A stretch of DNA of 38,919 nt from an uncultured Mycolicibacterium sp. (GCA_945957405.1 CAMFLL010000024.1:1-38919); one strand, 5' to 3'; counted from the stretch's first letter, positions 959-29,259 are shown. A program made the numbers and translations. The notes: generated by a model not told the origin, from the sequence alone.

Positions 959-1788
959 ACCTGGCCGATCAAGTGCAGATAGGCGTCTTCGAGGGTGGGG
1001 CGGCTGACTGTCAACTGCGCCAGCTCAACACCGGCCGTCGACCGTCGCCTGATCAACTCGGTCGGCTCGCTGGTCTCCTCCTCATGGACCTCGTCGCCTT
1101 CCATCCATCTCACAGTCGCAACGGAGTCGACGTACGCGGTCAATCGGTCCGGCGAATCCACCGCCACCACTCGGCCACCCGCGATGACCGCGACGCGGTC
1201 CGCCAGCGCCGCCGCTTCCTCCAAGTAGTGGGTGGTGAGCACGATGGTCGTGCCTTCGTCCGCCAACAGCCGGATGAGGCCCCAGAACTGGCGGCGGGCT
1301 TCGGGATCGAAACCGGTGGTCGGTTCATCGAGGAAGAGCAGCTCAGGCCTGGCGATGATGCCGAGAGCGACATCGAGCCGTCGTCGCTGCCCACCGGAGA
1401 GCGTCCTGACCTTCGATCCCGGCACCGAACCGAGACCCACCAGGTCGAGAGCTTCCTCCGGGGCTCGAGAATCGCCGTAGCATCTCGCGAACATCCGCAG
1501 CGTTTCAGACACCGTCAGCATCCCGAAGTCGCTGGCCTCCTGCAGCACGATGCCGATCCTGGCGCGCCAACTCCTACCCGCTGTGCCGGGGTCCTCGCCG
1601 AGCACTAGGACATCCCCGGAGTCCCGCTTCCGGTGGCCCTCGAGAATCTCGATGGTGGTCGACTTGCCCGCTCCGTTGGGGCCGAGAATCGCGAAGACTT
1701 CGCCGTAGCCGACGTCGAGATCGAGACCCTGCACCGCGCGCAGTTGCCCGTACGCCTTCGACAGTCCCCGTACCTGAACGGGTTTCAC
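955..1788 (-). CDS. ABC transporter ATP-binding protein (DrrA-like)
   Basis: Walker A GPNGAGKST, signature LSGGQRRRLDVAL, Walker B LLFLDEPTTGFDP; start overlaps the PKS stop (1785/1788). Confidence 0.95.
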   Translation of the reverse strand: MKPVQVRGLSKAYGQLRAVQGLDLDVGYGEVFAILGPNGAGKSTTIEILEGHRKRDSGDVLVLGEDPGTAGRSWRARIGIVLQEASDFGMLTVSETLRMFARCYGDSRAPEEALDLVGLGSVPGSKVRTLSGGQRRRLDVALGIIARPELLFLDEPTTGFDPEARRQFWGLIRLLADEGTTIVLTTHYLEEAAALADRVAVIAGGRVVAVDSPDRLTAYVDSVATVRWMEGDEVHEEETSEPTELIRRRSTAGVELAQLTVSRPTLEDAYLHLIGQV

Positions 1789-4700
1789 GGATGCACACCA
1801 CCTGGGCCAGGACCAGGCTGCCCCTCGAGTTCGGCCAGCAGTTCCCGCAATTCGTCCTCCGACAGGTCGTCGATCAGACCGTCCACGTCACTGTCCACGC
1901 CAGGAGGCGGCGGTTGGTCCGTGACGACGGGTGCGGCACCGTGGGTGGCGTGGAGCTCGGTCAGTACGCGGTCGGACAGGGAGTTCACGCTGACGCCCCG
2001 AAGGATCTCCAGCACGGGGAGATCAATCGAGAACATGGTGTTGATCCGGACGCGGAAATCCATTGCCATCATGGAGTCCAGGCCGATGTCGTCCAGCATG
2101 TCGTCGGGCTCGATGTCGCCGGCGGCGCAGTCAAAGACAGCGGCCACGATGCGTCGCACATGATCGGCGATCACCGCCGATCGCTCGACTTCCGGGGTGT
2201 TTGCGAGTACGTCGAGTATCGACGGGCCCGAATCATTGTGGCGGATCGCCGTTTCGGCGGTCTCGAGTTCTGAGAACATCATCGGTAGCTGTCCGCCGAA
2301 CCCGGCCTGCCTGGCGCGGCCCCAGTCGGCGCTGATGGCGACGATGGCGGGCACTGTCTGATTGATGAGCCGATCGAGGATCCGCGTGCCCACCGCGGGG
2401 GTGATCAATTCGATTCCACGCTGCGCGTAGAGCTTCTCGAGCTTGAGCTCTTCGACCATGCCCACCGACCATGGCCCCCACCCGATGGTCAGCGCCGGTA
2501 GTCCCCGCGCCCGCCGGTAGTGCGCGAAAGCGTCGAGAAAGGCATTGGCAGCCGCGTAGTTTCCCTGCCCCGGCGCGGCGATGGTCGACCCGGCCGACCC
2601 GAACATGACGAAGAACTCCAGGTCGTGCTGTTCAAAGGTGTCGTGCAGCACGCGGGTACCGGTGATCTTGGGCGCCAACACCTTCACGAAATCTTCTTCG
2701 CTGATGTTGACCAGAAGTTGGTCGGCGACCGAGCCCGCCGCATGGACGACTCCGCGAACTGGCCGGCCCCCGGCACCGGTATGGCTGTTCAGCCACGCCG
2801 CCACTTGCCGTTTGTCGGTGATGTCGACACTCGCGGTGTCGATGTGCACGCCGAGGCGCTCGACGGCGAGGATGGTGGTGACCGTCGCGAAGTCGGCGTC
2901 GCCTTCGGTCAGGTCTGACCACAGACTTCTTGGCGGGATCGCGCGGCGGCTCAGCAGTGTGATGTGCCGTGCGCCCCGTTGGGCGAGATAGGTGGCCACG
3001 ACGCGGCCGAGTGCCCCCGCGCCGCCGGTCACGACGTACGTCGCATCGGGGCTGAGCTTGGTGGGGAACGGTTTAGTCAAGCGGCTGCACGGGCGCAGGC
3101 GCGGAACGTATGTCGTGTCACCACGGATCGCGATCTGATCTTCCGCGTCGCCGCCGAGTAGGTGCTCGCAGATGTGCGCGGCGGTCTGACCCGGGTCGTC
3201 CGCGTCGTCGATGTCGATCAGTGCGCCCCACCGGTCGCCTAATTCCTGGTGCCCGATGACCCGGCCGAGTCCCCAGAGGGCGGCCTGGTCGATCCCGGTC
3301 AGGTCGGTACCGGGTGCCGGCTGCGCGTTGGCGGTGATCAGGAACAGGCGCGACGTTCCAGAGCCGTGCTCGGCGAGGGCTTTGACGACCCGTAGGACGG
3401 CCAAGACACCGATCTGCTGATTCGCGTCGGCGTCGGTCTCGGCGCAGATGTCGAGGGGCCAGCAGTCGACGATGCCCGCGACGTCGTCGTCGAGGCGCAG
3501 ATACCGATCGATGACGTCGGTCAGCGCACCGGCAGAGTCGTGTTCGACCGTGTGCACGCGATGGCCGCGGCCGCGCAGTGCGTCCGCGACAGCCGCACCG
3601 ACACCGGTGCTGTCGACGAGGACAAGCCACGACGCGTCGTCGACCAGGGCCTCCACCGGTTGGTGGGCATCCGCGTCGTCGTCATCGGCCTTGGCACGCC
3701 ACTGCAGTTCGTAGAGTCCCTTGTCGATGCGGTCCGGCGACATCCGCGACGAAGCGCTCAGCGACTGCACGACGAATCCCTCGAAGACCGCCAACGGGTT
3801 TCCGAGCGCGTCGGTGATGGTGATGTCGCACTCGACCGCCTCTCTGGTTGCGGAGAGCACATGGGCGTGCACCGTCATACGTTCTTCGGGCGATCCGTAG
3901 ACCGCGCAGTGCCTGATTCGGGTGGGAAGGTAAGGGTCTTCGTTCTCTTCCTGCCCGAGAAATGGTGCACCGAACAGTGTTTGAAAGGCGCCGTCGATGA
4001 GGGCCGGATGGAATCGGTATGCGTCCAGCTCGCCGGCGATCGCAGCCGGGACCGCAATCTCGGCGACAGCCCAGTCTTCTCCGGCGGTCACCCTCTGGAC
4101 GCATCGGAATGCGGTGCCGTAGTCGAATCCGATGGCCTGGGTGCGCCCATAGAAGTCGTCACCACCGATCGAGGTCACCGGCTCCGTGGAGTCGGGCGCG
4201 CCCCGGCGGCACGGCGGCGTGGGCAGAGTGTTGAGTTCGGCGGTCGCCGTGATGGTCCACTTCAGTTCGCCGTCAGCCGTTGCCGTGAACGCGGCGAATT
4301 CCAGTGTGCCGTCGTCCTGATTGAGTGTCGTCCTGAGGATGGGATCGCACGTGTCGTCGAGGATGACGGCGCGGTGCAGCACCAGGTTGTCGACGCTGTG
4401 GTGCGACCCATAGGTGGCCTGGCCTGCCGCGTGGGCCATCTCGACATATACCGACCCCGGTACGACGACACTTCCCTGTATCCGGTGATCGGCGAGGAAT
4501 GCGTTGAGGATGGTGCTGAACTCGGCCTCCCAGGTCGGATGCACGGCGCTGACCGACTGCCCCAGCAGGGGGTGCACCGGATCATAGAAAAGCGCTTCGG
4601 TCGCCTCCTGGGTCTCGTTCCAGAAGCGCTTGTTCTGCCACGGGTAAGACGGCAGTTTCACCGGGTGAGTGCCGCAGGTGGGATACACGGCATCCCAGGC

Positions 4701-7292
4701 GACGTCGACGCCGTGGCAGTGCAGAGCGCCGACACAACTCAGGAAGGTGCGACCGTCGTCGTCGCCACGCCGCTGGCTCGGTATCACCGAGACCCGCTGC
4801 GAACCGGCGGTTTCCGCGATCGAAGCGGCCAGAACGGGATGAGGCCCCAGCTCGACGAAGTGGGTGTAGCCGTCGTCCAGCATCCGCCGCATCGCCGGTT
4901 CGAAGAGAACTGTTGCGCGGGTGTTCTGCCACCAGTACGCCGCGCCGGCCTGGTATCCGTCCAACTGTTCGCCGGTGACAGTCGAATACAGCGGGCGCAT
5001 CGCCGGTTTCGACGACAACCCCTCGAAGGCGCTGACCAGATCGGCCTTCACCGTCTCCATGAAATGGGTGTGGTACGGCACCTTCACGGACAGGTACCGG
5101 TTGAAGATCCCGCCCCCGTCCAACTGCCGGGCGATATCGTCCAGGACGTCGCTGTCACCGGCGACGGTCACCGCTGAGGGGCTGTTGATCGCAGCCACCG
5201 ACACCCGCCGCCCGAATTCGTCGAGTGTCCGCTCGTCGAGGGTCCGCATCAGCGACTCGGCATCAAGGCCGACGGCCAGCATGCGGCCCCGCCCGGTCGT
5301 GCGTTGTTGCAGGCGGCTCCGATGGTAGATGACTCCGATCGCCTGCTCGAAGGTGAGCAGGCCGGCGAGATGATGAGCGGCGACTTCACCGGCGCTGTGG
5401 CCGACCACGGCGTCCGGGGTGATTCCGAACTGCGCCAACTGTTCTGCCAGTGCGATCTGGATCGCGAAGTTCGCGGGTTGGGCCACGTCGGTCTCGGCCA
5501 TCCGAGAACAGGTTTCGTCGCGTCGCAGCTCGTCGATCAGCGACCAGCCCGCATATCGTGTCAACTCGCGGTCACTACGGACGATGCTTTCGGTGAAGGC
5601 CGGGAAGACGTCCAGTAGCCCACGACACATGCCCCACCACTGCGGACCCATGCCGGTACAGACGAAGGCCAGCTTGGGCGCGACAGCGGTGCGGCCGACG
5701 GAGAGTTGCCCGCCGTCGGCGAGGGCGCCGAGCCGTTGGCGCGCCTCGACGAGGTTCTCGGCGACCACGGTGTGCCGATGGCTGAGGTGCGCACGACGCC
5801 GCGCGAGCGTGTAACCGAGATCGGGCAGCGCGATGTCCGGGTGGGCGCCCACATGCTCGGCCAACCGCGCGGCCGTGTCGACCAGTGCCTCCTCGCTGCG
5901 TGCCGAGATCGGCAGGATCACCAGCGGCGGGCCGACGGAACGATCCGATGCGGGTTCGCGGTCCGGGACGGCCGGTTCGGCCAGCACCACATGGGCGTTG
6001 GTGCCGCCGAACCCGAATGAGTTGACCCCTGCAATGCGGCGCCGGCAGTCCGGAAATGCCCGGCCCGTACGGGGGACATCGATGTTGAGATCGCCGAGAG
6101 AAACATGGCGGGTGGGCGTTTGGAGATGGAGGTTCGCCGGGATGTAACCGTGTTTGAGCACCAGCGCCGCTTTGATGAGCCCGGCGACACCCGCACCGGC
6201 CTCGAGGTGACCGATGTTGGTCTTGACCGATCCGATCAGCAGAGGATTCGTCGGGGGGCGATCCGAGGTCAGCGCGCCGGCGAGTGCTCGCATCTCGATG
6301 GGGTCCCCGACGGGCGTACCGGTCCCGTGTGCTTCCACATACCCGACGTCGACGGGCTGCACACCCGCGCGTCGCAGGGCCGTCCTGATGGCTGCTTCCT
6401 GAGCCTCTTCACGTGGCACGGTGATGCCGTCGGTGTGGCCGTCCTGCGATACCGCGGTGCCGAGGATCTGCGCGTAGATCTCGTCACCGTCGCGGAGCGC
6501 CCGCTCGAGCGGTTTGATGACGACGATCGCGCCGCCTTCACCCCGTGCGTAGCCATCCGCCGAATCGTCGAACGCCTTGGAACGTCCCTCAGGGCTGAGG
6601 AACCCGCTTCTTGATTCCGCGATGGCGGTGTTGGGGCCGATCATGATGTTGACACCGCCGGCGAGCGCGACGTCGCACTCCCCGTTCCAGATACTCTGCG
6701 CAGCAAGGTGTACCGCGACGAGCGAGCCCGAGCACGCCGTGTCGATCGTGATGCTCGGCCCGCGAAAGTCGAAGGTGTACGAGATACGGTTCGCCAGCAT
6801 CGTCATCATCATCCCGGTGGCGGAATGAGACTTGAATCGGTAGCGGCTGGTGCGGCCCTGGTTCTGCAGGAGTTGATAGTCGAGCGTGAACCCGCCAACG
6901 AAGACGCCGACGTCGGTGCCCGCGAGTGTGTCGGCGGGTATCCCACCGTCCTCGAGCGCCTCCCAGGCAACCTGCAGCAGGAGGCGTTGTTGCGGATCGA
7001 GCGAGTGCGCCTCACGGGGCGAGATGCCGAAGAACTGTGGATCGAATTGATCGATCTCACCGAGGAACCCACCTCGGCGCGTGGCGATCTTGCCGATCTT
7101 CGCCGGATTCGGGTCGTGATACCGCGCGGCATTCCAACGTGTTTCGGGGACTGTGCAGGTGGCGTCGGTTCCGCTGTACAGCAAATCCCAGAAGCCGGCC
7201 GCGGAATCGGCGCCACCCGGAAATCGGCATCCGATGCCGACGAGGGCAAGCGGTGCGTGGTCATCACGTTCAGTGAGCATGGTCACGCTCAA
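1785..7292 (-). CDS. Type I polyketide synthase, single module KS-AT-DH-KR-ACP
   Basis: 1835 aa. KS: DTACSGS, EAHGTGT, KTNIGHLEAGAG. AT: GHSAGE. DH: HRIQGSVVVP (HxxxGxxxxP). KR: TGGAGALGR with FGSAGS and QGNYAAANAF. ACP: DDIGLDSMMAMDFR. No ER, methyltransferase or C-terminal thioesterase seen. Confidence 0.97.
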   Translation of the reverse strand: MSVTMLTERDDHAPLALVGIGCRFPGGADSAAGFWDLLYSGTDATCTVPETRWNAARYHDPNPAKIGKIATRRGGFLGEIDQFDPQFFGISPREAHSLDPQQRLLLQVAWEALEDGGIPADTLAGTDVGVFVGGFTLDYQLLQNQGRTSRYRFKSHSATGMMMTMLANRISYTFDFRGPSITIDTACSGSLVAVHLAAQSIWNGECDVALAGGVNIMIGPNTAIAESRSGFLSPEGRSKAFDDSADGYARGEGGAIVVIKPLERALRDGDEIYAQILGTAVSQDGHTDGITVPREEAQEAAIRTALRRAGVQPVDVGYVEAHGTGTPVGDPIEMRALAGALTSDRPPTNPLLIGSVKTNIGHLEAGAGVAGLIKAALVLKHGYIPANLHLQTPTRHVSLGDLNIDVPRTGRAFPDCRRRIAGVNSFGFGGTNAHVVLAEPAVPDREPASDRSVGPPLVILPISARSEEALVDTAARLAEHVGAHPDIALPDLGYTLARRRAHLSHRHTVVAENLVEARQRLGALADGGQLSVGRTAVAPKLAFVCTGMGPQWWGMCRGLLDVFPAFTESIVRSDRELTRYAGWSLIDELRRDETCSRMAETDVAQPANFAIQIALAEQLAQFGITPDAVVGHSAGEVAAHHLAGLLTFEQAIGVIYHRSRLQQRTTGRGRMLAVGLDAESLMRTLDERTLDEFGRRVSVAAINSPSAVTVAGDSDVLDDIARQLDGGGIFNRYLSVKVPYHTHFMETVKADLVSAFEGLSSKPAMRPLYSTVTGEQLDGYQAGAAYWWQNTRATVLFEPAMRRMLDDGYTHFVELGPHPVLAASIAETAGSQRVSVIPSQRRGDDDGRTFLSCVGALHCHGVDVAWDAVYPTCGTHPVKLPSYPWQNKRFWNETQEATEALFYDPVHPLLGQSVSAVHPTWEAEFSTILNAFLADHRIQGSVVVPGSVYVEMAHAAGQATYGSHHSVDNLVLHRAVILDDTCDPILRTTLNQDDGTLEFAAFTATADGELKWTITATAELNTLPTPPCRRGAPDSTEPVTSIGGDDFYGRTQAIGFDYGTAFRCVQRVTAGEDWAVAEIAVPAAIAGELDAYRFHPALIDGAFQTLFGAPFLGQEENEDPYLPTRIRHCAVYGSPEERMTVHAHVLSATREAVECDITITDALGNPLAVFEGFVVQSLSASSRMSPDRIDKGLYELQWRAKADDDDADAHQPVEALVDDASWLVLVDSTGVGAAVADALRGRGHRVHTVEHDSAGALTDVIDRYLRLDDDVAGIVDCWPLDICAETDADANQQIGVLAVLRVVKALAEHGSGTSRLFLITANAQPAPGTDLTGIDQAALWGLGRVIGHQELGDRWGALIDIDDADDPGQTAAHICEHLLGGDAEDQIAIRGDTTYVPRLRPCSRLTKPFPTKLSPDATYVVTGGAGALGRVVATYLAQRGARHITLLSRRAIPPRSLWSDLTEGDADFATVTTILAVERLGVHIDTASVDITDKRQVAAWLNSHTGAGGRPVRGVVHAAGSVADQLLVNISEEDFVKVLAPKITGTRVLHDTFEQHDLEFFVMFGSAGSTIAAPGQGNYAAANAFLDAFAHYRRARGLPALTIGWGPWSVGMVEELKLEKLYAQRGIELITPAVGTRILDRLINQTVPAIVAISADWGRARQAGFGGQLPMMFSELETAETAIRHNDSGPSILDVLANTPEVERSAVIADHVRRIVAAVFDCAAGDIEPDDMLDDIGLDSMMAMDFRVRINTMFSIDLPVLEILRGVSVNSLSDRVLTELHATHGAAPVVTDQPPPPGVDSDVDGLIDDLSEDELRELLAELEGQPGPGPGGVHP

Positions 7293-7301
7293 TGGCCCGG
7301 G

Positions 7302-9068
7302 TCAACTCGTCTGGAATGCCGGTGAGGCGGTGACAATCCAGTCACCGCACAGCGGGTTGATCGGCTGGTCGCGACGGTAGGCCGAACGCAGTTCGCGCAG
7401 GAGCGAATCTCGTTGCCACGCCTGCACTTGTCGCATGACGTCGTCCTCTCCGAACATAGCCGACTTCTCCGTGAGAACGGTCTCGACCAACTGACCCGCC
7501 AGCTGACGCAGCAACCGAGTGTTGGTGTCGAACTGCTCGGCGAAATTCGGGCTGGCGCTCATCATCGCGGTGTGCAATGTCACCATGAAGTTCAACGGCG
7601 CATACAGATCGACGAACGGCACTGCGGGCGTGCCACCTTCGACCGCAGCCCACTCACGGAAGAATCGTTGGGCACGGTTGCTGAGGTCGATCAGCCCCTG
7701 CAGATGGGGAACGAACTCGGGGTTGTCCGCGACGCCGACGAACCGGCCGTTCATGTACAGCAGGCCGATGAATCCCCAGTAGAAGGCGACGTCCCAGATG
7801 ATCTTCGCCGACATCACGGTGGGCGTACCCATCAAGGTGTACTGGTCCTGGTACACGTTGAGCCACATGTCGGTCAACGACCGAAACAGCGTGTCGCTGA
7901 TCTGCGATCGCGCGGCGATGTCCTCACCGTCGAGTTCCCTGATGATCATGTCTGTGATGAGGCCGTTGCCGATCGCGACCAGGTCCAGCCCTGACGAATA
8001 GAGCGGATCCAGGAATATCCCTGAATCGCCTGTCAGGCACCACCGGTCGTGGCCGTCGAACATCTTGGTCACGCCGTGGCTGTAATTCTTCATGACCCGG
8101 AAGTCTCTGATCAGGTGGTCGCTTTCCGCCAGCACCGCGGCGCACTGCGGTTCATGGTCACGAAGCCATGCCTTTGCCTTCTCCAGGGTGTTGAACGCGG
8201 CAAAAGCGTGGAACGCCGGGTCGGCGACGATTCCGACGCTGGTGGCACCGGATCCCAGCCGGATCAGCCACACCCAATAGCCTTCTCCCATCAGGTGATT
8301 GGTTGACATCGCGCGGTCGCCCTCGACCAGGCGTCCCTGCCACGTCGGGTCCTCGCTCCACCGACCGACATCGATCTCCGTCGCGACGCGCAGCCACGCC
8401 GCATTGCAGTTGTGGTCGTTGGCCCGCTTGACACCCAATTGCTTTGGTAGCGTGCGGTTCCGGCCCGATGCGTCAACCACCCACCGGGCCGTGGTGTGGT
8501 CATTCGTGCCATCGTGTTGAAAGTGGATGGTGTGTGGCCCGTCGTGACCACCGTCTATCGACCGCACGCGGCCACAGACGATGTCGACACCGGCGGCGAG
8601 GCATCGCCGGTTGAGCTCATTCTCCAGCCTGCCGCGGTCGATCTGGTAGGTCACCTGCGGGACGAACGAGGAACTTCCCAATTCCATCCGTTGTGCGATA
8701 TCGGTGTTACCGCCGTGTGAGAAGAACATCCGCAGGCCCATCTTGCGGATGTGCGATGTGCGCAGGTGCTCGGCGAGGCCGAGGCGGTCCCTCAGGTAGT
8801 GCGCCGAGACCTCGACGGTCGACTCTCCGACGGTGTGGGTGATCTCGGGCACCGGGTGGGCGTTCGACTCGATGACCAGTATCCGTGTGCTCGGTCGCAC
8901 GAGGCGGATCTCCAGTGCAAGAGTGAGCGCCGCGACGCCGCCACCCACGATCACCACATCGTGGTCCGCCGCCGGGGCATCGGTGTCTGACAGGCGCGTC
9001 TTTATCCGTTGCGCGAGGGCTTCGCGTGTCACCGCATCCATTTGCGACAGCCGCGCTCGCACGTCCAC
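7302..9068 (-). CDS. Flavin-dependent halogenase-like / FAD-dependent oxidoreductase
   Basis: VVIVGGGVAALTLALE dinucleotide fold, HTVGEST, HIRKMGLRMFF (candidate catalytic Lys), GYWVWLIRL (WxWxI), FLDPLYSSGLD (FxDPxxSxG). The ORF track start (9278) is probably too long; GTG at 9068 is preceded by GGAAGGT. ATG at 9041 is an alternative. Confidence 0.82.
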   Translation of the reverse strand: MDVRARLSQMDAVTREALAQRIKTRLSDTDAPAADHDVVIVGGGVAALTLALEIRLVRPSTRILVIESNAHPVPEITHTVGESTVEVSAHYLRDRLGLAEHLRTSHIRKMGLRMFFSHGGNTDIAQRMELGSSSFVPQVTYQIDRGRLENELNRRCLAAGVDIVCGRVRSIDGGHDGPHTIHFQHDGTNDHTTARWVVDASGRNRTLPKQLGVKRANDHNCNAAWLRVATEIDVGRWSEDPTWQGRLVEGDRAMSTNHLMGEGYWVWLIRLGSGATSVGIVADPAFHAFAAFNTLEKAKAWLRDHEPQCAAVLAESDHLIRDFRVMKNYSHGVTKMFDGHDRWCLTGDSGIFLDPLYSSGLDLVAIGNGLITDMIIRELDGEDIAARSQISDTLFRSLTDMWLNVYQDQYTLMGTPTVMSAKIIWDVAFYWGFIGLLYMNGRFVGVADNPEFVPHLQGLIDLSNRAQRFFREWAAVEGGTPAVPFVDLYAPLNFMVTLHTAMMSASPNFAEQFDTNTRLLRQLAGQLVETVLTEKSAMFGEDDVMRQVQAWQRDSLLRELRSAYRRDQPINPLCGDWIVTASPAFQTS

Positions 9069-9328
9069 GCGCGTCACCTTCCCGTGTGTCGGTCGATGAA
9101 GCCGTTCAGCAGTTCGCACGCTACCCGAAACGTTGCCGCGGCCAGCCAAGACGGATCCGGGGTACCTGCCGGAACCACCGCGCCGGTCACGGCAGGCACA
9201 TGCCCGCCTGGGGGAACAGCTAAACCTCGGCGCATCTCGTGGCGCTGTTCGATGGCACGCTGAGATTCCGTGTAGCAACGACGTGATGACGGCCGCACCG
9301 GGACCTTTCTCGAGTGATTACCGAATCC

Positions 9329-10771: not shown

Positions 10772-11203
10772 CTATGCGAGCGGGGCGGTCAGTTCGATGT
10801 TGATGTCATCAGGGTCCTGGAAGGACAGGATGGCAATGCCGGCGCCGGCCAGGTCGATGATCTCGCCGTGAGTGATACCGGCGTCGCGCAGTGCTTTCTG
10901 GGCGGCCTCGAGACCGGCACGCGTATCGACGGAAAAGCTGATGTGGTCCAAGCCTGTTCGAGTCGAGTTGAATACATCTTCACCTGCCGGGCGTAATCCG
11001 AACAACGTGCCCTGCGGAGTTTGGTAGATGGTGCCGCCGAAGAAGTGGTCCGGCGAATTCTTCACCGTGAGATCGGCCACCGCGGTCGATGCGTCGACGG
11101 CGACGGGCCACCCGAATACCCTGTCGTAGAAGTCTTTCGAACGGGCGATATCCGTGACGGTGAGGCGGACGTGGTTGAAACCGGAACTGTTGATGTATGC
11201 CAT
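10772..11203 (-). CDS. VOC (glyoxalase/bleomycin resistance/dioxygenase) family protein
   Basis: GFNHVRLTVTDIARSKDFYDRVFGWP and LDHISFSVDTRAGLEAA...LSFQDPDDINIELTAP. Start at 11203 (MAYINSSGF) preferred over 11254. Confidence 0.88.
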   Translation of the reverse strand: MAYINSSGFNHVRLTVTDIARSKDFYDRVFGWPVAVDASTAVADLTVKNSPDHFFGGTIYQTPQGTLFGLRPAGEDVFNSTRTGLDHISFSVDTRAGLEAAQKALRDAGITHGEIIDLAGAGIAILSFQDPDDINIELTAPLA

Positions 11204-11263
11204 GATGATTGAATCTCTCTTTCGCGCAGCCGTTTCCATTGACATGGTCGGCATCGGACAAGG

Positions 11264-11776
11264 TCAGACGTCCGCACGCTCCAGGGCGGGCTTCTTGGTG
11301 AGCAGGTCACCCGGCCACTCTGAAGCGAAACCGAAGGCGGTGCCGAGCACTATCGCTCCGACCACCAGTACGACGGGGTGGGAGACGTTGACGGGAGCGG
11401 TGATCGCGGTTCCGGTGGCCGCAATGGTCCCCACCACGGAGGCGAAGCCGAAGAACCCCGCAGGCGTGAAACTCACCAGGCCTTCCCTGGTGATGAACAC
11501 GAGGATGCCTGCGCCGATGACCACGCATCCGGCGACCGCCCACGTGCTGCCGCCGAGCGCGGTGATCGCGAGCATGGTCGCGGTGGCGCTGGCCACGCCG
11601 AGGGCGTTCATCACCAGCGATCGGGCTGCACCATCCAGCCCGCCACCCGCGGCGAAGAACGACGCCCAGGCGATGAACAGCACCCAGATGGGCACCGGAA
11701 CGAGGAAGCCGGTGAGGAGGCAGGACAAGCCGGCCAGCAGACCGATGCTCACTGTGCTGGCGATACGTGGGGACAT
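11264..11776 (-). CDS. DUF1097-like small integral membrane protein
   Basis: MSPRIASTVSIGLLAGLSCLLTGFLVPVPIWVLFIAWASFFAAGG..., 170 aa with about 5-6 TM segments. ORF track 11264..12082 is over-extended into the GATase gene. Overlaps the GATase 3' end by 28 bp. Confidence 0.75.
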   Translation of the reverse strand: MSPRIASTVSIGLLAGLSCLLTGFLVPVPIWVLFIAWASFFAAGGGLDGAARSLVMNALGVASATATMLAITALGGSTWAVAGCVVIGAGILVFITREGLVSFTPAGFFGFASVVGTIAATGTAITAPVNVSHPVVLVVGAIVLGTAFGFASEWPGDLLTKKPALERADV

Positions 11777-12462
11777 GGGGTCACTCCTGAATCTAGGCGG
11801 GAGAAGAACTGGTTGTAGAGCCGACCCGCGGCGGCAATGGCCGCGGGCTCGAAAGTCGGTGTGGAGACGAGAATCTGCTCGATGTTGCCGCCAGCGTCGG
11901 TGATCGACCGACGGCGTCTCGGTGTGCCGAGCCAGTAGTCGATGTGATCCGCGGTGAGTTCCGGGTGGTACTGCACGCCGATGTGTCGGCCGTGGATGAA
12001 AGCATGCACACAGCGCGGGCTGGTGGCCACGACGGCGCTGTCCGGCGGGGGCGAGATCTCGTCGCCGTGCCACACGAACCACCTGCCGCCGTACGGCTCA
12101 TCACCGGCGATGTCGTACCAGCCAAGCTCCGGTTGAACCATCCGGTGTACGCCGCCACCGAGGACGAGCGCGAGAAGCTGTGCTCCGAAACAGATTCCGA
12201 GCACAGGGGTGCCGGCTTCGACGCAGGCGCCGACGAACTCGTGCTCGGCCCGGATCCAGGGCTCGTCGGTCTCGTATGCAGATCGACTGCTACCCAGCAC
12301 GGCCAGCGCACGGTAGCGGTCCGGCGGCGGCAGGGGTCCCGCGGCTACGTCGACCACGACGTACGGCATCGCATGGTCGTCGAGCCACGCCGCGAGATTG
12401 CCTGGTCCGTCGTCGGATTGGTGTTGCAGGATCAGGATCACACCGTCGGATCCGTCGTTCAC
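11749..12462 (-). CDS. Class I glutamine amidotransferase-like protein
   Basis: VLGICFGAQLLALVLGGGV (Cys nucleophile elbow) and GVQYHPEL (His-x-Glu). Confidence 0.92.
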   Translation of the reverse strand: MNDGSDGVILILQHQSDDGPGNLAAWLDDHAMPYVVVDVAAGPLPPPDRYRALAVLGSSRSAYETDEPWIRAEHEFVGACVEAGTPVLGICFGAQLLALVLGGGVHRMVQPELGWYDIAGDEPYGGRWFVWHGDEISPPPDSAVVATSPRCVHAFIHGRHIGVQYHPELTADHIDYWLGTPRRRRSITDAGGNIEQILVSTPTFEPAAIAAAGRLYNQFFSRLDSGVTPCPHVSPAQ

Positions 12463-13517
12463 GGGTAGGCCCTCAGTTCCTGTTCCAACGAGTCCTCAGT
12501 CGTGCGCCCGTCGCGCAAGCGCTCATCGGTGGTGAATCGCACCGCTTCGTTGCGTGCGCGGTTGACGACAGTGCTGAAGACGTCGGGCCGCGTGTAGTGG
12601 CCGGTGGGATCGAAGTTGAGCCGTTCCCGGAACACGTGATCGAGGTCGAGATCGGCGACGATCACTCCTTCCTCGCCGACGACCGGCGGGATGACCCAGC
12701 GCCCGTCCGGTCCTGCGATGGCGCTGCCACCGTCGAAGACCACGGTGTCAGAGGCCTCGCGGAGTTGATCCGCCAGCGGGAAGTCGCTGGGGATCGAATC
12801 GGCGGTGATCAACCCGGACGCGGCGATGCCGAATACCCGGCCCTCGGCGGCGACGAATCTCGTGATGTCGCCGGTCAATGCGCTGGACCCGGGCCACGCC
12901 GCGACATGGACGGTCTCACCCTGCGCATACAACGCGGTGCGCGCCTGTGGCATCCAGTTCTCCCAGCAGTTCAGGCTCCCCACCAGGGCCGGTCCGACCG
13001 GGTGCGTGACCAGGCCCGCGCCGTCGCCCTGGCCCCAGACCAGTCGTTCGTCGTAGGTGGGGACCAACTTCCGGTGGTGGCCTACCAGACCGTGTCGCGG
13101 ATCGAGGGTCAGCAGGGTGCACCATGCGGTGCCCCGGCCCAGCCCTCGACCGCGTTCGGTGACTCCGACGATCATGGTGATGCCGAGATCTGCTGCGGCA
13201 ATCTGCATCTCACGCTGTTCGGGACCGTCCACCTCGATCGCGGCGTCCAGGTAGTAGGCGTAGCAGTCCTTTTGGTCAGGGTGGTCGAACAGCGCGCCCT
13301 GGGTGCGTGACGGCCAGAACGGATACCCGGACAGATAGGTCTCCGGGTATGCGATCAGCGTGGCACCCGACGCGGCCGCGACGTGCGCGGCCTCGATGAT
13401 CCTTGCCAGGCGCGCCGCGGGCTTGAGCCACGGCCCTCCGAGTTGGGCGGCCGCGACCGTGATCGCGTTGGATCCCGGCTGCGGTTCCCGGTGCTCGGCA
13501 ATTACTTTCAGTGGCAT
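12459..13517 (-). CDS. Nitrilase (carbon-nitrogen hydrolase, CWEN branch)
   Basis: Catalytic triad visible: E in AYPETYLSGYPFW, K in HHRKLVPTYDERLVWGQGDG, C in GSLNCWENWMPQAR. Start overlaps the GATase (12459/12462). Confidence 0.93.
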   Translation of the reverse strand: MPLKVIAEHREPQPGSNAITVAAAQLGGPWLKPAARLARIIEAAHVAAASGATLIAYPETYLSGYPFWPSRTQGALFDHPDQKDCYAYYLDAAIEVDGPEQREMQIAAADLGITMIVGVTERGRGLGRGTAWCTLLTLDPRHGLVGHHRKLVPTYDERLVWGQGDGAGLVTHPVGPALVGSLNCWENWMPQARTALYAQGETVHVAAWPGSSALTGDITRFVAAEGRVFGIAASGLITADSIPSDFPLADQLREASDTVVFDGGSAIAGPDGRWVIPPVVGEEGVIVADLDLDHVFRERLNFDPTGHYTRPDVFSTVVNRARNEAVRFTTDERLRDGRTTEDSLEQELRAYP

Positions 13518-13561
13518 TCCGTCTCGGCTCTCGAGTTGTGGTCGGGGTGTGCTCGGCGGGG

Positions 13562-14995
13562 TCAGTAGACCTCGAAGTACTCGCGCTGCTCCCAGTCGGT
13601 GACGGCGGCGTTGAACCGCGAGATCTCCTTCTTCTTCAGCGTGGTGAGGTAGTTGACGAACGCGTCGCCCAGTTCGCGCCTCATCACGTCGCTGGTCTCG
13701 AAGTGGCGGACAGCCTCCTCGAGCGTGGCGGGCACCAGCGGTACATCGGCGGTGTACGCCTCGTCGGCCGACGGTCCCGGGTCGAGCTTGCGCGCGATGC
13801 CGTCGCGGCCGCTGATGAGTTGCGAGGCCATGTACAGGTACGGGTTGGCCGTGGGTTCGCCGATCCTGTTCTCCAGATGCGTGGAGCCGTCGCCGCGAGC
13901 ACCGGAGATACGGATCATGGCGCCGCGGTTCTCCTCGGCCCAGGCGATCCGGTCGGGCGCAAAGGAATTCGCGATGTAACGCTTGTAGCCGTTGATGGTG
14001 GGTGTGGTCAGCACCGAGCTGGCCTTGGCGTGTTCGAGGAGACCGGCCATGTAAGCCATGGCGGTGTGGGACAGAAGGTTGCCGTCCTCACCGGGGAAGA
14101 TGTTCGCCGTACCGGGCACACCCAGCGACTGGTGCAGATGCCACCCGCTGGACACGATGTTCGGGAACGCCGGCCGAGACATGAACGTGGCATGGTATCC
14201 GTGGCGGCGGCAGATCTGCTTGATGGCGCTGCGGATCAGCAGCACGTTGTCGGCCGTCTCGATGCCGGTGGTCGGCTCGAATGACATCTCGACCTGTCCC
14301 GGGCCCCACTCGTCTTCGACAGTGGCCAAAGGCATTCCGAGCGCGACGATCTCGTCGCGCAGAATCGACAGGATCGCGTCGGCCTCATCGCCGCGGTTCT
14401 CTGTCAGGTACTGGTAGCCATGGGACAGTGCCGTCACGGTGGGCGCCGCGGGGGGCCAGCCGGAATCGGCGAAACTCAGCTTCGGGTCGACCAGTCGGGT
14501 GATGTAGAACTCGAGTTCGGCGCCCGTGGTGAAGCTGTACCCCTCGTCCTGAAGTTTGGCGAGTTGGCGCTGCAGGACGCCGCGGGTGTCGAATGGCACC
14601 CGTTCGCCATTTCGGTAGTACATCTCGGACAGGACCCAGCCGGTCCGGTCGGCCCAGGGCAGGACCCGGAACGTGGTCGGGTCGGGTACCAGTACCGCGT
14701 CGGGCAGACCGGTCAGCCGGTCGTCACCGAAACCGTGGGCTTCGAAGGGCGGGACCGCTGGGTTGTTGGTGGTGTCGAAGATCAATGTCGCGGTCTGAAA
14801 GTCCTTCCCTTCGGTCATCGCCGACCGGAAGGCGTCGACCTCCAGAGTCTTGCCGCGCAGGATGCCGTGCTGGTCACCCCAGCTGATGCGCACCTGTCGC
14901 AGGTCGAGTTCGTTGAGTTGGGAGAGCAGCTTGGCCCCGGCTTCTTCCTGCTGCTGAGACCACAAACCGTTGGCGGCGATGAATGACGAGCCCAT
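13562..14995 (-). CDS. Glutamine synthetase family protein (putative gamma-glutamyl-amine/amide synthetase)
   Basis: 478 aa or less: GAELEFYI, GPGQVEMSFEP, SSGWHLHQSL, STHLENRIGEPTANPYLYMASQ. Start at 14995 with GAGGAGGAACA RBS; the ORF track start 15115 is too far upstream. Confidence 0.94.
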   Translation of the reverse strand: MGSSFIAANGLWSQQQEEAGAKLLSQLNELDLRQVRISWGDQHGILRGKTLEVDAFRSAMTEGKDFQTATLIFDTTNNPAVPPFEAHGFGDDRLTGLPDAVLVPDPTTFRVLPWADRTGWVLSEMYYRNGERVPFDTRGVLQRQLAKLQDEGYSFTTGAELEFYITRLVDPKLSFADSGWPPAAPTVTALSHGYQYLTENRGDEADAILSILRDEIVALGMPLATVEDEWGPGQVEMSFEPTTGIETADNVLLIRSAIKQICRRHGYHATFMSRPAFPNIVSSGWHLHQSLGVPGTANIFPGEDGNLLSHTAMAYMAGLLEHAKASSVLTTPTINGYKRYIANSFAPDRIAWAEENRGAMIRISGARGDGSTHLENRIGEPTANPYLYMASQLISGRDGIARKLDPGPSADEAYTADVPLVPATLEEAVRHFETSDVMRRELGDAFVNYLTTLKKKEISRFNAAVTDWEQREYFEVY

Positions 14996-15016: not shown

Positions 15017-15031
15017 GGTGATCTGATCTCT
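15017..15031. promoter_or_regulatory. Putative FadR-type operator copy 1 (imperfect)
   Basis: GGTGATCTGATCTCT, left half identical to the perfect palindrome at 15062-15076; just upstream of the GS-like gene. Confidence 0.5.
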
Positions 15032-15061: not shown

Positions 15062-15076
15062 GGTGATCAGATCACC
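15062..15076. promoter_or_regulatory. Putative FadR-type operator copy 2 (perfect palindrome)
   Basis: GGTGATC-A-GATCACC. Confidence 0.6.
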
Positions 15077-15158: not shown

Positions 15159-15854
15159 TCACCGTCGGACGAGCTTGTCGGTGGTGTCTACCAGGTGCAA
15201 CAGCATCCTGTTCGCGGCATCGGTGGCTTCCCGCGCGCGGATCGCGTCGACGATTCCCTGGTGGTCTTCCAGCGATCGCGCCGGCTGACCGGGCCGCGTC
15301 AACGAGGTCTCCGACGTCCGGTCGAGAGCCAGCCTCAGTCCTTTGAGGAGCTTCAACAGCAGCGGATTGTGCGCGGCGGTGGCCACACCCAGATGGAAGC
15401 GGCGGTCGCCGTCCAACCCGGGCAACCCCGCGGCGATCTCGTTCCTCATCTGTTCCAACGCCGCATCGAGTTCGTCGAGGTCGTCGGCATCGGCGTGCAC
15501 GGCAGCCAATCTCGCGCACTGCGCTTCCAGGGCCTGCCTGGTCTCCCAGATGTAGGGGTGATCGACATGTGTCTCGACGAGTTCGGCGGCCAACGACGAG
15601 ATGACGTCCTCGGGTCGCTGCAGCAGATAGATGCCGTCACCGTGCCTGATCTCGACGATGCCCTGGGCACGCAGAGCGGTGATGGCCTCGCGGATGGACG
15701 ACCGCCCGACCTGCAATTCCGTGGCAAGATCGCGCACGTTGGACAACTTGTCTCCGGGCTGCATGCCACTGGTGTCGATGAATTCGCGCAGACGCTCCCC
15801 GACTTGTTCATAGAGTGGCCGCCGGTCGATCTGGCCCATCTGGCCTGTCATCAC
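15159..15854 (-). CDS. GntR-family (FadR subfamily) transcriptional regulator
   Basis: GERLREFIDTSGMQPGDKLSNVRDLATELQVGRSSIREAITALRAQGIVEIRHGDGIYL wHTH, followed by an FCD-like all-helical domain. Confidence 0.93.
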   Translation of the reverse strand: MMTGQMGQIDRRPLYEQVGERLREFIDTSGMQPGDKLSNVRDLATELQVGRSSIREAITALRAQGIVEIRHGDGIYLLQRPEDVISSLAAELVETHVDHPYIWETRQALEAQCARLAAVHADADDLDELDAALEQMRNEIAAGLPGLDGDRRFHLGVATAAHNPLLLKLLKGLRLALDRTSETSLTRPGQPARSLEDHQGIVDAIRAREATDAANRMLLHLVDTTDKLVRR

Positions 15855-17138: not shown

Positions 17139-18638
17139 ATGAGCATCACCACCGATGTCCACGGCGAGGAGGGGTCGGTCCTGCGCAAGAGCCTGGGCCG
17201 TCTCGACATCGTGTTTCTGGCAGTGGCGGCGATCATCGGGATCGACACCATTGCCCAGATCGCGGCGACCGGCGGTGCGGAGGCATTCACCTGGTCAGTG
17301 GTCATCGCGGTGACGTTCCTGTTCCCGTATGCCCTGGTGACTGCCGAACTCGGCAGCACGTTCCGCCAGGAGGGCGGCCCCTACGTGTGGGTGCGGTTGG
17401 CGTTCGGCAGGCTCGCGGCCGCCGTGTCGACGATGTTCTACTGGATCACCAATCCGATCTGGCTCGGCGGCTCGCTGGTGTTCATCTCGGCTGCGACCTG
17501 GGACGCCTACATCCATCCGCTGACGCCGAATTCCGTCGGCGACTTCATGTTCAAGATCGTGTTCGTGTGGCTGGCGATCGCCACGGCGATCATCGGCTTG
17601 GAGTACGGCAAGTGGATCGTGGCCGCCGGCGCCATCTGCAAGATCGCGTTGATCGCCTTCTTCGTCGTCACCGTCGCGATCTACGCGGTCAAGAACGGCG
17701 TGCACGGGTACGCGATGGGCGACTTCTCCCCCACGACAGCCGGCTTCCTGGCCGTGACCCCTGTCCTGCTGTTCGCGTTCGTCGGATTCGAGGCACCCAA
17801 CGGCGCCGCCGAAGAGATGCGCAACCCGCGCCGGGACGTGCCCGTCGCCGTGGCGTCCTCGGGATCGGTCGCCGTGGCCTGCTATCTGATCCCGATCTTC
17901 GCGATCCTGGCCGTGATTCCCGCCGACCAGATCTCCGGCGCCAGCGGCTTCCTGGACGCCGTCGGCGAAGTGTTCAAGGTCTACGGCGGTGCCGCGGCGC
18001 CGATGATGGTGGTGACGGCACTGCTGTTCATCTTCGTCGTGCTCACCCAGGGCAGCGCCTGGATGATCGCCTCGGACCGGGTGCAAGCCAGTGCGGCCGC
18101 CGACGGCGCGTTTCCCCGTTACTTCGGCGCCTTCTCGGCGCGCTTCGGCACCCCGGTGCGGATGAACCTGCTGTCCGGTGTCATCGCCACCGTGTTCACC
18201 ATCGCGGCCAGCCTGCTGGTCTCCGGTAGCGCGGCATCGGTGTTCCAAGTCGTGCTGACAGTGGCCATCACGACGCTGCTGCTCAGCTACCTGATCATCT
18301 TTCCGACCATTGTCCGCCTGCGCCAACGTTTCCCCGACGTCGATCGCCCGTACCAGGTCCCCGGCGGCAAGGCCGGGCTGTGGATCAGCACCGTCCTGAT
18401 CTATCTGTGGGTGGCGCTCGGCGGTTGGGTCGCCGTCTTTCCCGGCACGCTGGAGCCACTGTTCGGGGTCGAGTACGACTTCACCGACACCTGGGGTGTC
18501 TCACGCGTCACCTTCGAGACGTTCACGATCGGCACCCTGGTCGTCATCGCCGTCGCGGCGCTTCTCGGCTACGCGTGGACGCGCAAGTACCAGCCCGGTT
18601 CGGAAACCGAGCGGCGCTTCCTGACGGCAGACGCCTAG
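17139..18638 (+). CDS. APC-family amino acid/amine permease
   Basis: 499 aa, about 12 TM; FAFVGFEAPNGAAEEMRNPRRDVPVAV is a typical APC motif. Confidence 0.93.
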   Translation: MSITTDVHGEEGSVLRKSLGRLDIVFLAVAAIIGIDTIAQIAATGGAEAFTWSVVIAVTFLFPYALVTAELGSTFRQEGGPYVWVRLAFGRLAAAVSTMFYWITNPIWLGGSLVFISAATWDAYIHPLTPNSVGDFMFKIVFVWLAIATAIIGLEYGKWIVAAGAICKIALIAFFVVTVAIYAVKNGVHGYAMGDFSPTTAGFLAVTPVLLFAFVGFEAPNGAAEEMRNPRRDVPVAVASSGSVAVACYLIPIFAILAVIPADQISGASGFLDAVGEVFKVYGGAAAPMMVVTALLFIFVVLTQGSAWMIASDRVQASAAADGAFPRYFGAFSARFGTPVRMNLLSGVIATVFTIAASLLVSGSAASVFQVVLTVAITTLLLSYLIIFPTIVRLRQRFPDVDRPYQVPGGKAGLWISTVLIYLWVALGGWVAVFPGTLEPLFGVEYDFTDTWGVSRVTFETFTIGTLVVIAVAALLGYAWTRKYQPGSETERRFLTADA

Positions 18639-18654
18639 CCCACCTCCGCCCGTC

Positions 18655-18686
18655 CAGATCCGTTCAGACCCAGATCCATTCAGACC
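18655..18686. repeat. Tandem direct repeat, 2 x 16 bp
   Basis: CAGATCCGTTCAGACC followed directly by CAGATCCATTCAGACC (one mismatch), in the intercistronic gap before hisD. Confidence 0.85.
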
Positions 18687-18701
18687 AGAAACGAGACACC
18701 C

Positions 18702-20012
18702 ATGATCACTGTTCGCGATCTCCGCGGCACGTCCGTCGATCTCGACGAGGTCGCGCCGCGGGCAACCCTCGACGTGAACGCGGCCCTGACGATGGTGCAA
18801 CCGATCATCGACGATGTCGCCGCCCGTGGGCAGGAGGCGCTGTTCGAGTACGCCGAACGCTTCGACGGAGTGCGACCGCCCGCACTTCGGGTGCCGCGCG
18901 AGGTGCTGCGCGATGCGCTTGCATCATTGGACCCGACGGTCCGCACCGCCCTGGAGGAGTCGATCCGGCGTGCCACCCTGGTTCACCGCGATCAACGACG
19001 CACCGACCAGGTCACGCAGGTCGCCGCCGGGGCCTCGGTGACCGAGAAGTGGGTGCCCGTCGAACGCGTCGGGCTCTACGTGCCCGGTGGTCGCGCGGTC
19101 TATCCCAGTTCAGTGGTGATGAACGTGGTGCCCGCACTGGAGGCAGGCGTGCGTTCGCTGGCAGTCGCCTCGCCCCCGCAGCGCGACAACGGTGGCTGGC
19201 CGCACCCGACCGTGCTGGCCGCCGCGGAACTGCTCGGCGTCGAAGAAGTGTTCGCCGCCGGCGGGGCACAGGCCATCGCCATGTTCGCCCATGGCGTGCG
19301 CGGCGCCGACAACGCGTGGACCTGCCGTCCGGTCTCCATCGTCACCGGTCCGGGCAACATCTGGGTCGCCGCGGCCAAGCGCGCGCTGCGCGGGAAGGTC
19401 GGCATCGACTCCGAGGCCGGCCCCACCGAGATCGCCATTCTCGCCGACGACACCGCGAACCCGGCCTGGGTGGCCGCCGATCTGATCAGCCAGGCCGAAC
19501 ACGACGTCATCGCCGCCTCGGTCCTGGTCACACCGAGTGCTGAACTGGCCCAACGTGTTCAGCGCGAACTCGAACTCCAGGTGCCGGCCGCCAAACACGT
19601 CGACCGCATCGGGCAGGCCCTGGCCGGACCGCAGTCGGCAATCCTGATCGTCGATGATCTCGAAGCCGGCCTCGCGGTGGTGGACGCCTACGCGGCCGAA
19701 CACCTCGAGATCCACGTCCGCGATGCCGCCGAAATCGCTGCGCGCGTGCGCAACGCCGGTGCGATCTTCGTGGGCCCGCACTCCCCGGTGTCGCTCGGTG
19801 ACTACTGCGCCGGCAGCAATCATGTCCTGCCCACCGGCGGATGCGCGTGCCATTCCAGTGGTCTGTCGGTGCAGACCTTCCTCCGCGGCATCCATGTGGT
19901 CGAATACGACGAACCCGCGTTGCGTGAGGTTGCCGGATACGTGACTGCCCTGGCCAACGCCGAAGACCTCCCTGCGCACGGTGTCGCGGTGGACATTCGC
20001 TTCACCGACTGA
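18702..20012 (+). CDS. hisD: Histidinol dehydrogenase (HisD family), likely paralogue
   Basis: [96 protein letters not shown], all characteristic of HisD; no hisC/hisB neighbour. Confidence 0.93.
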
Positions 20013-20038
20013 AACCGGTCAGTGGCTACGCTCGCGGT

Positions 20039-20686
20039 GTGCGCTTTGACATCGAGGCAGTCCTGTTCGACATCGACGGCACGCTGGTCGACTCGACCCG
20101 AGCAGTGGTGCGGACGTGGACTACGTGGGCAGCGAAGTACGGCGTCGACGTCGAGGCCGTCTTGCGCGTGTGCCATGGGCGTCGCAGCGAGGACACCATC
20201 GCCGAGTTCCTACCTGCCCACGAAAGAGCAGCTGCCGTCCGCTATTTGGAAGAGTTGGAGCTCGACGATCTCGACGACATCGTGGCGCTTCCGGCGACCC
20301 GTGACGTGTTGGGCCGCCTTCCCTCGAATCGCTGGGCCGCCGTGACGTCAGGCTCTCGCCGGCTCATGACGGCTAGGTTGAACGCTGCCGGGCTGCCCGT
20401 TCCTGCAGTGCTCGTCGCGGCCGAAGACGTCGCACAGGGCAAGCCCGATCCCCAGGGCTACCTGAAAGCCGCAGGCGCACTGGGATTCGACATCCGACGT
20501 TGCCTCGTGGTCGAGGACGCGCCGGCCGGCCTACGAGCAGGGCGCGCCGCCGGTGCGCAGGTGCTCGGCGTGGGGACCTCGCATCCGCTCGCTGAGCTTC
20601 GCGCGTCGGCGGATGCGGTGGCCGACGACCTGTCGGTGTGTTCGGTCGCTGTCGTACCCGGTGGATTGATCGTCGACGTCAGCTAG
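20039..20686 (+). CDS. HAD-superfamily hydrolase (beta-phosphoglucomutase/phosphatase-like)
   Basis: AVLFDIDGTLVDST (motif I), AVTSGSRRL (motif II), GKPDPQGYLKAAGALGFDIRRCLVVEDAPAG (motifs III/IV). Confidence 0.93.
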   Translation: MRFDIEAVLFDIDGTLVDSTRAVVRTWTTWAAKYGVDVEAVLRVCHGRRSEDTIAEFLPAHERAAAVRYLEELELDDLDDIVALPATRDVLGRLPSNRWAAVTSGSRRLMTARLNAAGLPVPAVLVAAEDVAQGKPDPQGYLKAAGALGFDIRRCLVVEDAPAGLRAGRAAGAQVLGVGTSHPLAELRASADAVADDLSVCSVAVVPGGLIVDVS

Positions 20687-22118: not shown

Positions 22119-22137
22119 GTTAGGAAAGTTTCTTAAC
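22119..22137. promoter_or_regulatory. Putative ROK operator
   Basis: GTTAGGAAA-G-TTTCTTAAC, 19-bp near-perfect inverted repeat in the divergent intergenic region. Confidence 0.65.
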
Positions 22138-22201
22138 ATACTTTCGTCAAGTGTGGAAGAGTGCGTGTCGTACTTCCACGATTTCGCCGAGGGGAGCACC
22201 G

Positions 22202-23413
22202 TTGGTAGAGCAGGCTGCGCCGCAGGCCGGTACGCCGGCGAGCATGCGCGCGCTCAATCAACGGTTGGTGCTCAACCGACTCCGGCACCACGGTGAGGCG
22301 ACCCGACCTCAGATCGCGAGCGACACCGGCCTGTCGAAGCCGACCGTGGGGCAGGCGCTGATGGATCTCGAGCAGCACGGCCTGGTGCGGGCCATCGGTC
22401 ACAGCGCGCCGCGGCCCGGCCGGGCAGCGGTGATCTACCGGACCGCCCCGGACGCGGGCTACATCGTCGGCGTCGATGTCGGCAGGCGCGTGCTGCACGC
22501 AGCGGTGGCCGACCTCGAGGGCACTGTCGTCGCGCGCTTCGAGCAACCGAATCGCAGCCGTTCCGGCACCACGCTGTTGCGCGGCGTGGCGGACTCCGTC
22601 GGACGCGTCATAGCGGAGGCCGGCTTGGCTCCTGACGACATCGTGGTGACTGTCCTTGGGACACCGGGCATCCCCGATGTCCAGACGGGCAGCATGGACC
22701 GCGCACCGAACCTGCCCGGTTGGGAGCGTCGCGGCCTGCTGCACGAGTTGGTGGCAGTGTTGGGGGCCGATGGTTCCGAAGTGATGGTCGAGAACGACGC
22801 CAACCTCTGCGCGGTCGGAGAGCATGCACGCGGCGCCGCGAAGGGCGTCGACGTGGTCGCGTGCCTCACCGTCGGCACCGGTATCGGGATGGGAATCCTG
22901 ATCGACGGCAAGTTGTTTCGCGGCGCGCACGGTGCGGCTGGCGAGATCGCGGACCTGCCCTACAGCGGGGTCCCGGCCGGGGTGACGGCACACCGCCCCG
23001 GTCCGGTGGAAGTGGTCGCTGCCGGTCAGGCGGTGGTCACCGCCGCGCGCGACGTCGGTCTGGACGTCACGACCGCCAAGGCGGTGTTCGAGCTGGCTCG
23101 CAGTGGAGACCAACGGGCGGCCGCTGTTGTCGCAGGCGAGGCTTCGCAGTTGGCGCACGTCGTCTCGGTGGTGACCGCGGTGCTGGATCCGGGCCTGATC
23201 GTGTTGGCCGGCGGGATCGGCGGCAACGCCGACCTGCTGGCCGACCCCATGCGTCGTGAACTCGCCCTGACCACTCCGAAGGTTCCCGAGATCGTCGGCG
23301 GACACCTGGGTGATGATGCGGTTTTGGTCGGCGCCATCTCGACCGCCATGAACACTGCCTGGGACCTGGTCTTCGAGCGACGTGTGCTGCGCCGGTCGTC
23401 GAAAGAGGCATGA
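22202..23413 (+). CDS. ROK-family transcriptional regulator
   Basis: N-terminal wHTH NQRLVLNRLRHHGEATRPQIASDTGLSKPTVGQALMDLEQHGLV, then ROK core VENDANLCAVGEHARGAAKGV...LTVGTGIGMGILIDGKLFRGAHGAAGEIAD. TTG start after GAGGGGAG. Confidence 0.92.
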   Translation: MVEQAAPQAGTPASMRALNQRLVLNRLRHHGEATRPQIASDTGLSKPTVGQALMDLEQHGLVRAIGHSAPRPGRAAVIYRTAPDAGYIVGVDVGRRVLHAAVADLEGTVVARFEQPNRSRSGTTLLRGVADSVGRVIAEAGLAPDDIVVTVLGTPGIPDVQTGSMDRAPNLPGWERRGLLHELVAVLGADGSEVMVENDANLCAVGEHARGAAKGVDVVACLTVGTGIGMGILIDGKLFRGAHGAAGEIADLPYSGVPAGVTAHRPGPVEVVAAGQAVVTAARDVGLDVTTAKAVFELARSGDQRAAAVVAGEASQLAHVVSVVTAVLDPGLIVLAGGIGGNADLLADPMRRELALTTPKVPEIVGGHLGDDAVLVGAISTAMNTAWDLVFERRVLRRSSKEA

Positions 23414-25690: not shown

Positions 25691-25692
25691 TC

Positions 25693-29116: not shown

Positions 29117-29259
29117 TTGACGTCTGGGCTGCGACGCCGCACACTTTGAGCACCGCTGCAGTTCAGAAGAGCCCCAGAATGGCCGTCCATTTCGGATGGG
29201 CGAGGGGGCGCCCCTCCCTGCATTCACCCAGCGCCGCAATCGATCACAGGAGGACCACC

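Follow-up and report, generated by a model that had tools for sequence, protein, structure and literature searches.

Glutamylation is an established first step in the breakdown of amines that are later oxidised. In the Puu pathway of Escherichia coli (PuuA, B, C, D) an amine is glutamylated, its far end is made into a carboxylate and the glutamate is removed by PuuD. The aniline, chloroaniline and 1-naphthylamine systems (AtdA1-A5, TdnQT.., DcaQT.. and NpaA1-A5) also process the amine as a glutamyl amide; in these systems a synthetase resembling glutamine synthetase (GS) is encoded beside a class-I glutamine-amidotransferase-like (GATase) gene, a two-component Rieske oxygenase and a reductase. 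The studied members of the NpaA1/AtdA1/DcaQ group make gamma-glutamyl amides that are consumed by the next enzyme, and no such glutamyl-organic-amide synthetase (GoaS) has been reported to use ammonium (PMC11335346). Here we analyzed a related cassette in a stretch of 38,919 nucleotides from an uncultured Mycolicibacterium sp. (GCA_945957405.1, CAMFLL010000024.1:1-38919; the whole stretch is referred to as the window). It consists of five minus-strand genes at 10772-14995 coding for a GS-like protein, a nitrilase, a class-I GATase, a DUF1097 membrane protein and a VOC protein.

In gene content the cassette is similar to the aniline-type systems, and the GS-like synthetases are homologous (46-47% identity). 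However, a nitrilase is found where those systems have the Rieske oxygenase and reductase, neither of which was seen beside the cassette among the annotated genes of the window. Further differences are a GS clade and amine loop of its own and a GntR regulator instead of their LysR. The likeness to the Puu pathway lies in the logic of the proposed route: PuuA is from a distant GS branch, and the nitrilase replaces the PuuB/PuuC-type oxidase and aldehyde dehydrogenase, which are absent from the operon. We give even chances to the reading that the cassette is a substrate-induced catabolic operon handling an aminonitrile by a glutamate tag, with amine and nitrile on one molecule. The pairing with a nitrilase would widen tagging to a general handle for oxygenase, nitrilase or amidase. 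The combination extends glutamylation-based amine catabolism and suggests an unrecognised use of amino-nitriles by soil mycobacteria and some unrelated bacteria. In the literature searched, which omits most subscription journals, we found no description of a GS/nitrilase/GATase operon or of a nitrilase and a GS together with an aminonitrile.

By its sequence relations the GS-like protein is a GoaS of the NpaA1/AtdA1/TdnQ/DcaQ type and not an ammonia-using GS. Its top PDB match was 8wwu (phmmer, 4.6e-141), about 85 orders of magnitude better than the next one (6.4e-56). We take 8wwu to be NpaA1, the 1-naphthylamine glutamylase, judging by its length and the subject of its paper rather than by a database link; the sequence of the NpaA1 gene was taken from plasmid pJS3066. 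In a tblastn search against plasmids the protein was 47% identical to DcaQ-type proteins of chloroaniline plasmids, whose genes lie in the context of GS, GATase, a two-subunit Rieske oxygenase and a reductase. That these plasmid genes are DcaQ/TdnQ is our assumption from gene context and general knowledge. The likeness to TdnQ and AtdA1 claimed in the original prediction was thus right for the GS. In a tree of 69 rows the NpaA1/AtdA1/DcaQ group including the window's GS had a support of 100/100. All nitrilase-linked GS proteins formed one clade (94/97) beside the Rieske-linked and amidase-linked clades; most of their relatives are encoded next to Rieske oxygenases and others next to amidases.

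The ammonia-flap Glu (StGS E327) was replaced by Phe in all 16 nitrilase-linked GS proteins (F345 in the window's) and by Leu in NpaA1. The text of PMC11335346 prints the flap residue as Glu357, a position which is conserved in the present alignment. Nitrilases release ammonia and a GS-fold enzyme adjoins, which would suit a GS that merely assimilates this ammonia. This role is disfavoured because the flap Glu is lost and the protein belongs to the GoaS clade; moreover, the source genome, a 7.8-Mb mycobacterial draft, has 17 matches to the GS domain. We regard it as highly improbable, and the ammonia-only GS that the original prediction had raised against itself becomes unlikely on the first two grounds.

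The extra N-terminal amine-binding loop (15th motif) was present at GS residues 64-81, where E. coli GlnA has a gap. Its signature GKDFQ..T.IFDTTN.P (residues 64-79) was invariant in the nitrilase-linked clade, and K64, Q67, T76 and P79 were found in every nitrilase-linked GS and in none of the relatives. The alignment at Asp50' is ambiguous, with a conserved IFD motif next to the amine loop. The protein also carries W230.

Two other types of GoaS operon were compared. Rieske-alpha-linked operons of Alpha- and Betaproteobacteria (Methylobacterium, Polaromonas, Cupriavidus plasmids and others) have a sister GS of ~50% identity, and near some of them lie ABC transporters of the branched-chain/urea type, but they differ in the Rieske oxygenase partner and in a Lys, not Phe, at tunnel position 75. 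In the amidase-linked operons (Prescottella plasmid p1-WH99, G513 and G578) the GS-like enzyme lies beside a carbon-nitrogen hydrolase as in the cassette. However, this is an amidase-signature enzyme and not a nitrilase, and the GS proteins form a separate monophyletic clade. This third operon type was observed at L186:2017-6485 (Prescottella equi plasmid p1-WH99), L130 and L142; L186 carries a GATase and an AmiS/UreI transporter as well.

Searches baited with the nitrilase or the GS recovered the GS-nitrilase pair from 16 genomes or plasmids of Actinomycetota and Alphaproteobacteria, the window's included. The others were: four genomes of the genus Mycobacterium (L009, L010, G008, G055), three Pseudonocardia (L011, L012, L015), Kineosporia (L013), a Streptomyces tendae plasmid (L119), Patulibacter (L026), the actinomycetes G142 and G477, and the three alphaproteobacteria Azorhizobium oxalatiphilum, G912 and G691. 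Recurring in 16 genomes of two phyla, this adjacency is beyond chance, and for this pair the gene order on which the original prediction depended is kept far beyond one strain. The nearest cassette to the window's was that of M. yunnanensis (GS 91% identity). A GATase gene adjoined the pair in 11 of the 16 cassettes and a GntR/FadR regulator gene in 13, so that the conserved core is GS, nitrilase and usually GATase and GntR. The five families proposed to belong together did not hold as a set: the GATase is missing in 5/16, and DUF1097 is optional, being present in five cassettes at three different positions. No conserved VOC counterpart was seen among the 16 cassettes; it occurs in the window's operon only; near one other cassette, at a distance of 5 kb, there is only a 27% relative. 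The VOC protein was therefore rejected as a core member and is probably co-transcribed with the operon yet outside the conserved core. An APC permease was present in three cassettes other than the five with DUF1097. The distribution is patchy: of 395 evenly sampled class members only two, the window's genome among them, had a GS match within the nitrilase-linked range.

Judged from its relatives, the nitrilase-fold protein is a branch-1 nitrilase, predicted to convert a nitrile to an acid and ammonia. As claimed before for both hydrolases, the catalytic residues were intact (E59, K150, E157 and C184 in the nitrilase; C91, H166 and E168 in the GATase, aligned with NpaA2, DcaT and PuuD). Glu, Lys and Cys of the nitrilase triad were kept in 16/16 GS-linked relatives. 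The GATase was ~30% identical to NpaA2, and 26% identical to PuuD over a short stretch only. Fold and catalytic residues of the nitrilase are those of the Nit6803 family and NIT4, but it scored 163.8 bits with the Nit6803 equivalog model TIGR04048, far under the curated cut-off of 502.6, and has a fixed GoaS gene partner. On the nitrilase tree, linkage to GS needs one change, and the actinobacterial bulk (12 rows) and the alphaproteobacterial GS-linked nitrilases each had a support of 99. The nearest solved relatives were without exception nitrilases, NIT4 or cyanide-degrading enzymes, amidases ranking far lower, and DUF1097 associates with nitrile hydratase. Both observations speak against an amidase which would act on the gamma-glutamyl amide or a precursor amide and free the amine, no nitrile being involved. 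Nitrilase-superfamily amidases exist, and the third GoaS operon type has a true amidase in the equivalent role; we nevertheless consider such an amidase very unlikely. The cassette gives a natural context to a nitrilase branch for which no substrate record was found. A different nitrilase, 46-47% identical to the window's, was observed beside a histidinol-dehydrogenase-like gene in M. yunnanensis (L082 6743-8939) and in G084 (L095).

Outside the cassette, DUF1097 adjoined nitrile hydratase alpha/beta genes at 27 loci (L187-L192, L194-L199, L202-L207, L209, L211, L212, L216, L220, L223, L225, L244, L247), mostly in mycobacteria but also in G395, G1100 and the alphaproteobacterium G691; in most of them the DUF1097 gene lies near 1.5 kb. 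In two Pseudonocardia (L214, L215) it adjoined an acetamidase/formamidase, whereas 17 more loci over the cut-off showed neither nitrile hydratase nor acetamidase. These counts are non-independent, many loci being from one genus. The AlphaFold (AF2) model was confident and showed an all-helical bundle (predicted local distance difference test, pLDDT, 87.6). A Foldseek search of it against the PDB gave no match at E<=0.001, and the 50 that were listed included weak ALMT-like ones but no UreI; a UreI-like fold thus received no support. A role as cobalt carrier for nitrile hydratase is disfavoured because DUF1097 also occurs with the nitrilase cassette and with an acetamidase, and because G691 has a separate gene of CbtA type. 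The natural reading is a permease or channel related to nitriles or amides. For this uncharacterised family the neighbours are a functional lead towards nitrile and amide metabolism; no link to nitrile hydratase was found in the literature searched, with the same gap in subscription journals.

In the proposed route the GoaS-type ligase would first join the gamma-carboxyl of L-glutamate to the substrate amine at the expense of ATP. The nitrilase would then turn the nitrile of the tagged molecule into a carboxylate with release of ammonia. Finally, the GATase-like hydrolase would remove the glutamate in the manner of PuuD to give a free amino acid; in cassettes lacking it a different gamma-glutamyl hydrolase would take over. 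DUF1097, or the APC permease in other species, may transport the substrate or the product. The tag would keep alpha-aminonitriles from releasing cyanide. The enzyme encoded beside the GS in the breakdown of aniline and naphthylamine takes the gamma-glutamyl amide as its substrate (PMC11335346); a gamma-glutamyl aminonitrile would be the analogous substrate of the nitrilase. The combined amine and nitrile chemistry first suggested in the original prediction gains support from the monophyly of the GS clade, its distinct amine loop and the link of DUF1097 to nitrile and amide enzymes, although we infer the reaction order, the substrate and the presence of both groups on one molecule, and the last point is unproven.

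Several further points weigh against a single aminonitrile substrate. The joint node uniting the GS-linked nitrilases is weak (46), and most members of the large clade that includes the nitrilase stand alone. The GATase is missing beside five cassettes, among them that of the closest relative, M. yunnanensis. For the breakdown of aniline and naphthylamine, the GAT-like counterpart of this GATase (AtdA2 in the aniline system) reportedly reverses the tagging and is dispensable (PMC11335346). Stand-alone nitrilases and an occasionally absent GATase would suit a scavenging of nitrogen from two substrates, in which the nitrilase takes one nitrile, the GS-like enzyme glutamylates a different, co-occurring amine under one regulator, and the resulting glutamyl amide is recycled by the GATase; both a nitrilase and a GoaS can act without a partner enzyme. 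On the other hand, the nitrilase-paired GS proteins of two phyla are monophyletic and share a private amine-loop signature, which suggests a matched substrate. We hold the two-substrate explanation to be unlikely.

The tunnel also counts against a small aminonitrile. All 16 nitrilase-linked GS proteins kept the NpaA1 tunnel residues F75, F86 and W235 unchanged, and the position of V201 is Tyr as in AtdA1 (PMC11335346). Such an aromatic tunnel may fit an aromatic amine at least as well, and an arylamine bearing a nitrile (e.g. aminobenzonitrile) could follow an aniline-like route with the nitrilase replacing the Rieske oxygenase. However, the loop beside the tunnel has gained polarity (A69 to Q, P72 to T, V78 to T, S79 to N), we recognised no genes for ring cleavage next to the cassettes, and glycine-type metabolism is indicated by some of the neighbours. 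We consider an aromatic substrate distinctly unlikely, yet the tunnel is a reason to keep aromatic amino-nitriles among the candidates.

The neighbours in question are gcvT-gcvH-glyA-sdaA, which adjoin the three Pseudonocardia cassettes while a second glyA is located elsewhere in those genomes, and a flavoenzyme gene of dimethylglycine/sarcosine-dehydrogenase layout with electron-transfer flavoprotein (ETF) genes near the cassette of G477. In Azorhizobium a BhcA-like aminotransferase, under that model's cut-off, lies ~8.5 kb from the cassette. For the aminonitrile reading these point to a product that is glycine or a methylglycine and to substrates of the aminoacetonitrile type, small aminonitriles being the leading guess. 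The Pseudonocardia glyA neighbours are from one lineage and count as a hint only; moreover, the glycine neighbours were selected in hindsight and represent two or three lineages, which also lowers their weight. In its most specific form, the glutamate would act as a protective group: aminoacetonitrile, or a similar compound arising from cyanide, formaldehyde and ammonia, would be gamma-glutamylated and pass via gamma-glutamyl-glycine to glycine, with DUF1097 proteins as nitrile/amide-linked transporters. We regard this version as unlikely.

The GntR protein, whose gene precedes the five-gene run, is a probable repressor of the operon from its sequence, and would act via a palindrome before the GS gene. 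The palindrome GGTGATCWGATCACC, perfect in the window, was found upstream of GS in the window, L009 and L010. Related TGGTCnGACCA-type palindromes precede GS in most other actinobacterial cassettes; none was seen before GS in L119. In the M. yunnanensis genome the sole perfect match is that of its cassette, and one additional perfect match each was found in the window's genome (G000) and in G580. Further regulon members were rejected, the additional matches lying beside genes without evident link.

All five open reading frames with their family matches were recovered on the minus strand, together with the overlaps noted earlier (Table 1). The GS-like and nitrilase genes are separated by 44 bp, nitrilase and GATase genes share 4 bp (12459-12462), and GATase and DUF1097 genes share 28 bp (11749-11776). 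The gap from DUF1097 to VOC is 9 bp with the VOC start at 11254 or 57 bp with that at 11206.

Table 1. Features of the nitrilase-linked GoaS cassette in the window
Feature	Position	Strand	Evidence and remarks
GS-like ligase, GoaS group, nitrilase-linked clade	13562..14995	-	PF00120 Gln-synt_C 2.3e-84; ATG start at 14995 as in homologues
Branch-1 nitrilase, Nit6803-like, motif NCWENWMP	12459..13517	-	PF00795 CN_hydrolase 1.2e-36; TIGR04048 4.2e-48
Class-I glutamine-amidotransferase-like hydrolase, candidate gamma-glutamyl amide hydrolase	11749..12462	-	PF00117 GATase 6.5e-14
DUF1097 small all-helical membrane protein, candidate permease/channel (nitrile, amide or product)	11264..11776	-	PF06496 1.6e-28
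VOC/glyoxalase-fold protein, start 11254 or 11206	10772..11254	-	PF00903 Glyoxalase 3.8e-12
GntR/FadR (FCD) regulator, probable operon repressor	15159..15854	-	PF00392 + PF07729
Candidate operator GGTGATCAGATCACC	15062..15076	.	upstream of GS start; related site 15017-15031

A second, unrelated GS-like gene (PuuA/glutamylputrescine-synthetase-like) was present in the window at 24359-28031, with M20 peptidase and amidohydrolase genes before it and a LysR gene downstream; this is possibly another glutamylation locus. Two long open reading frames (22133-23305 and 29196-30764) had zero Pfam matches and are only putatively coding. The region 17139-20686 contained APC permease, histidinol-dehydrogenase-family and HAD hydrolase genes divergent from TetR, MarR and GntR regulators. 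At 98-9278 a single-module polyketide synthase (KS-AT-DH-KR-ACP), a halogenase-like flavoenzyme and an ABC-2 exporter resembled a small lipid/polyketide cluster.

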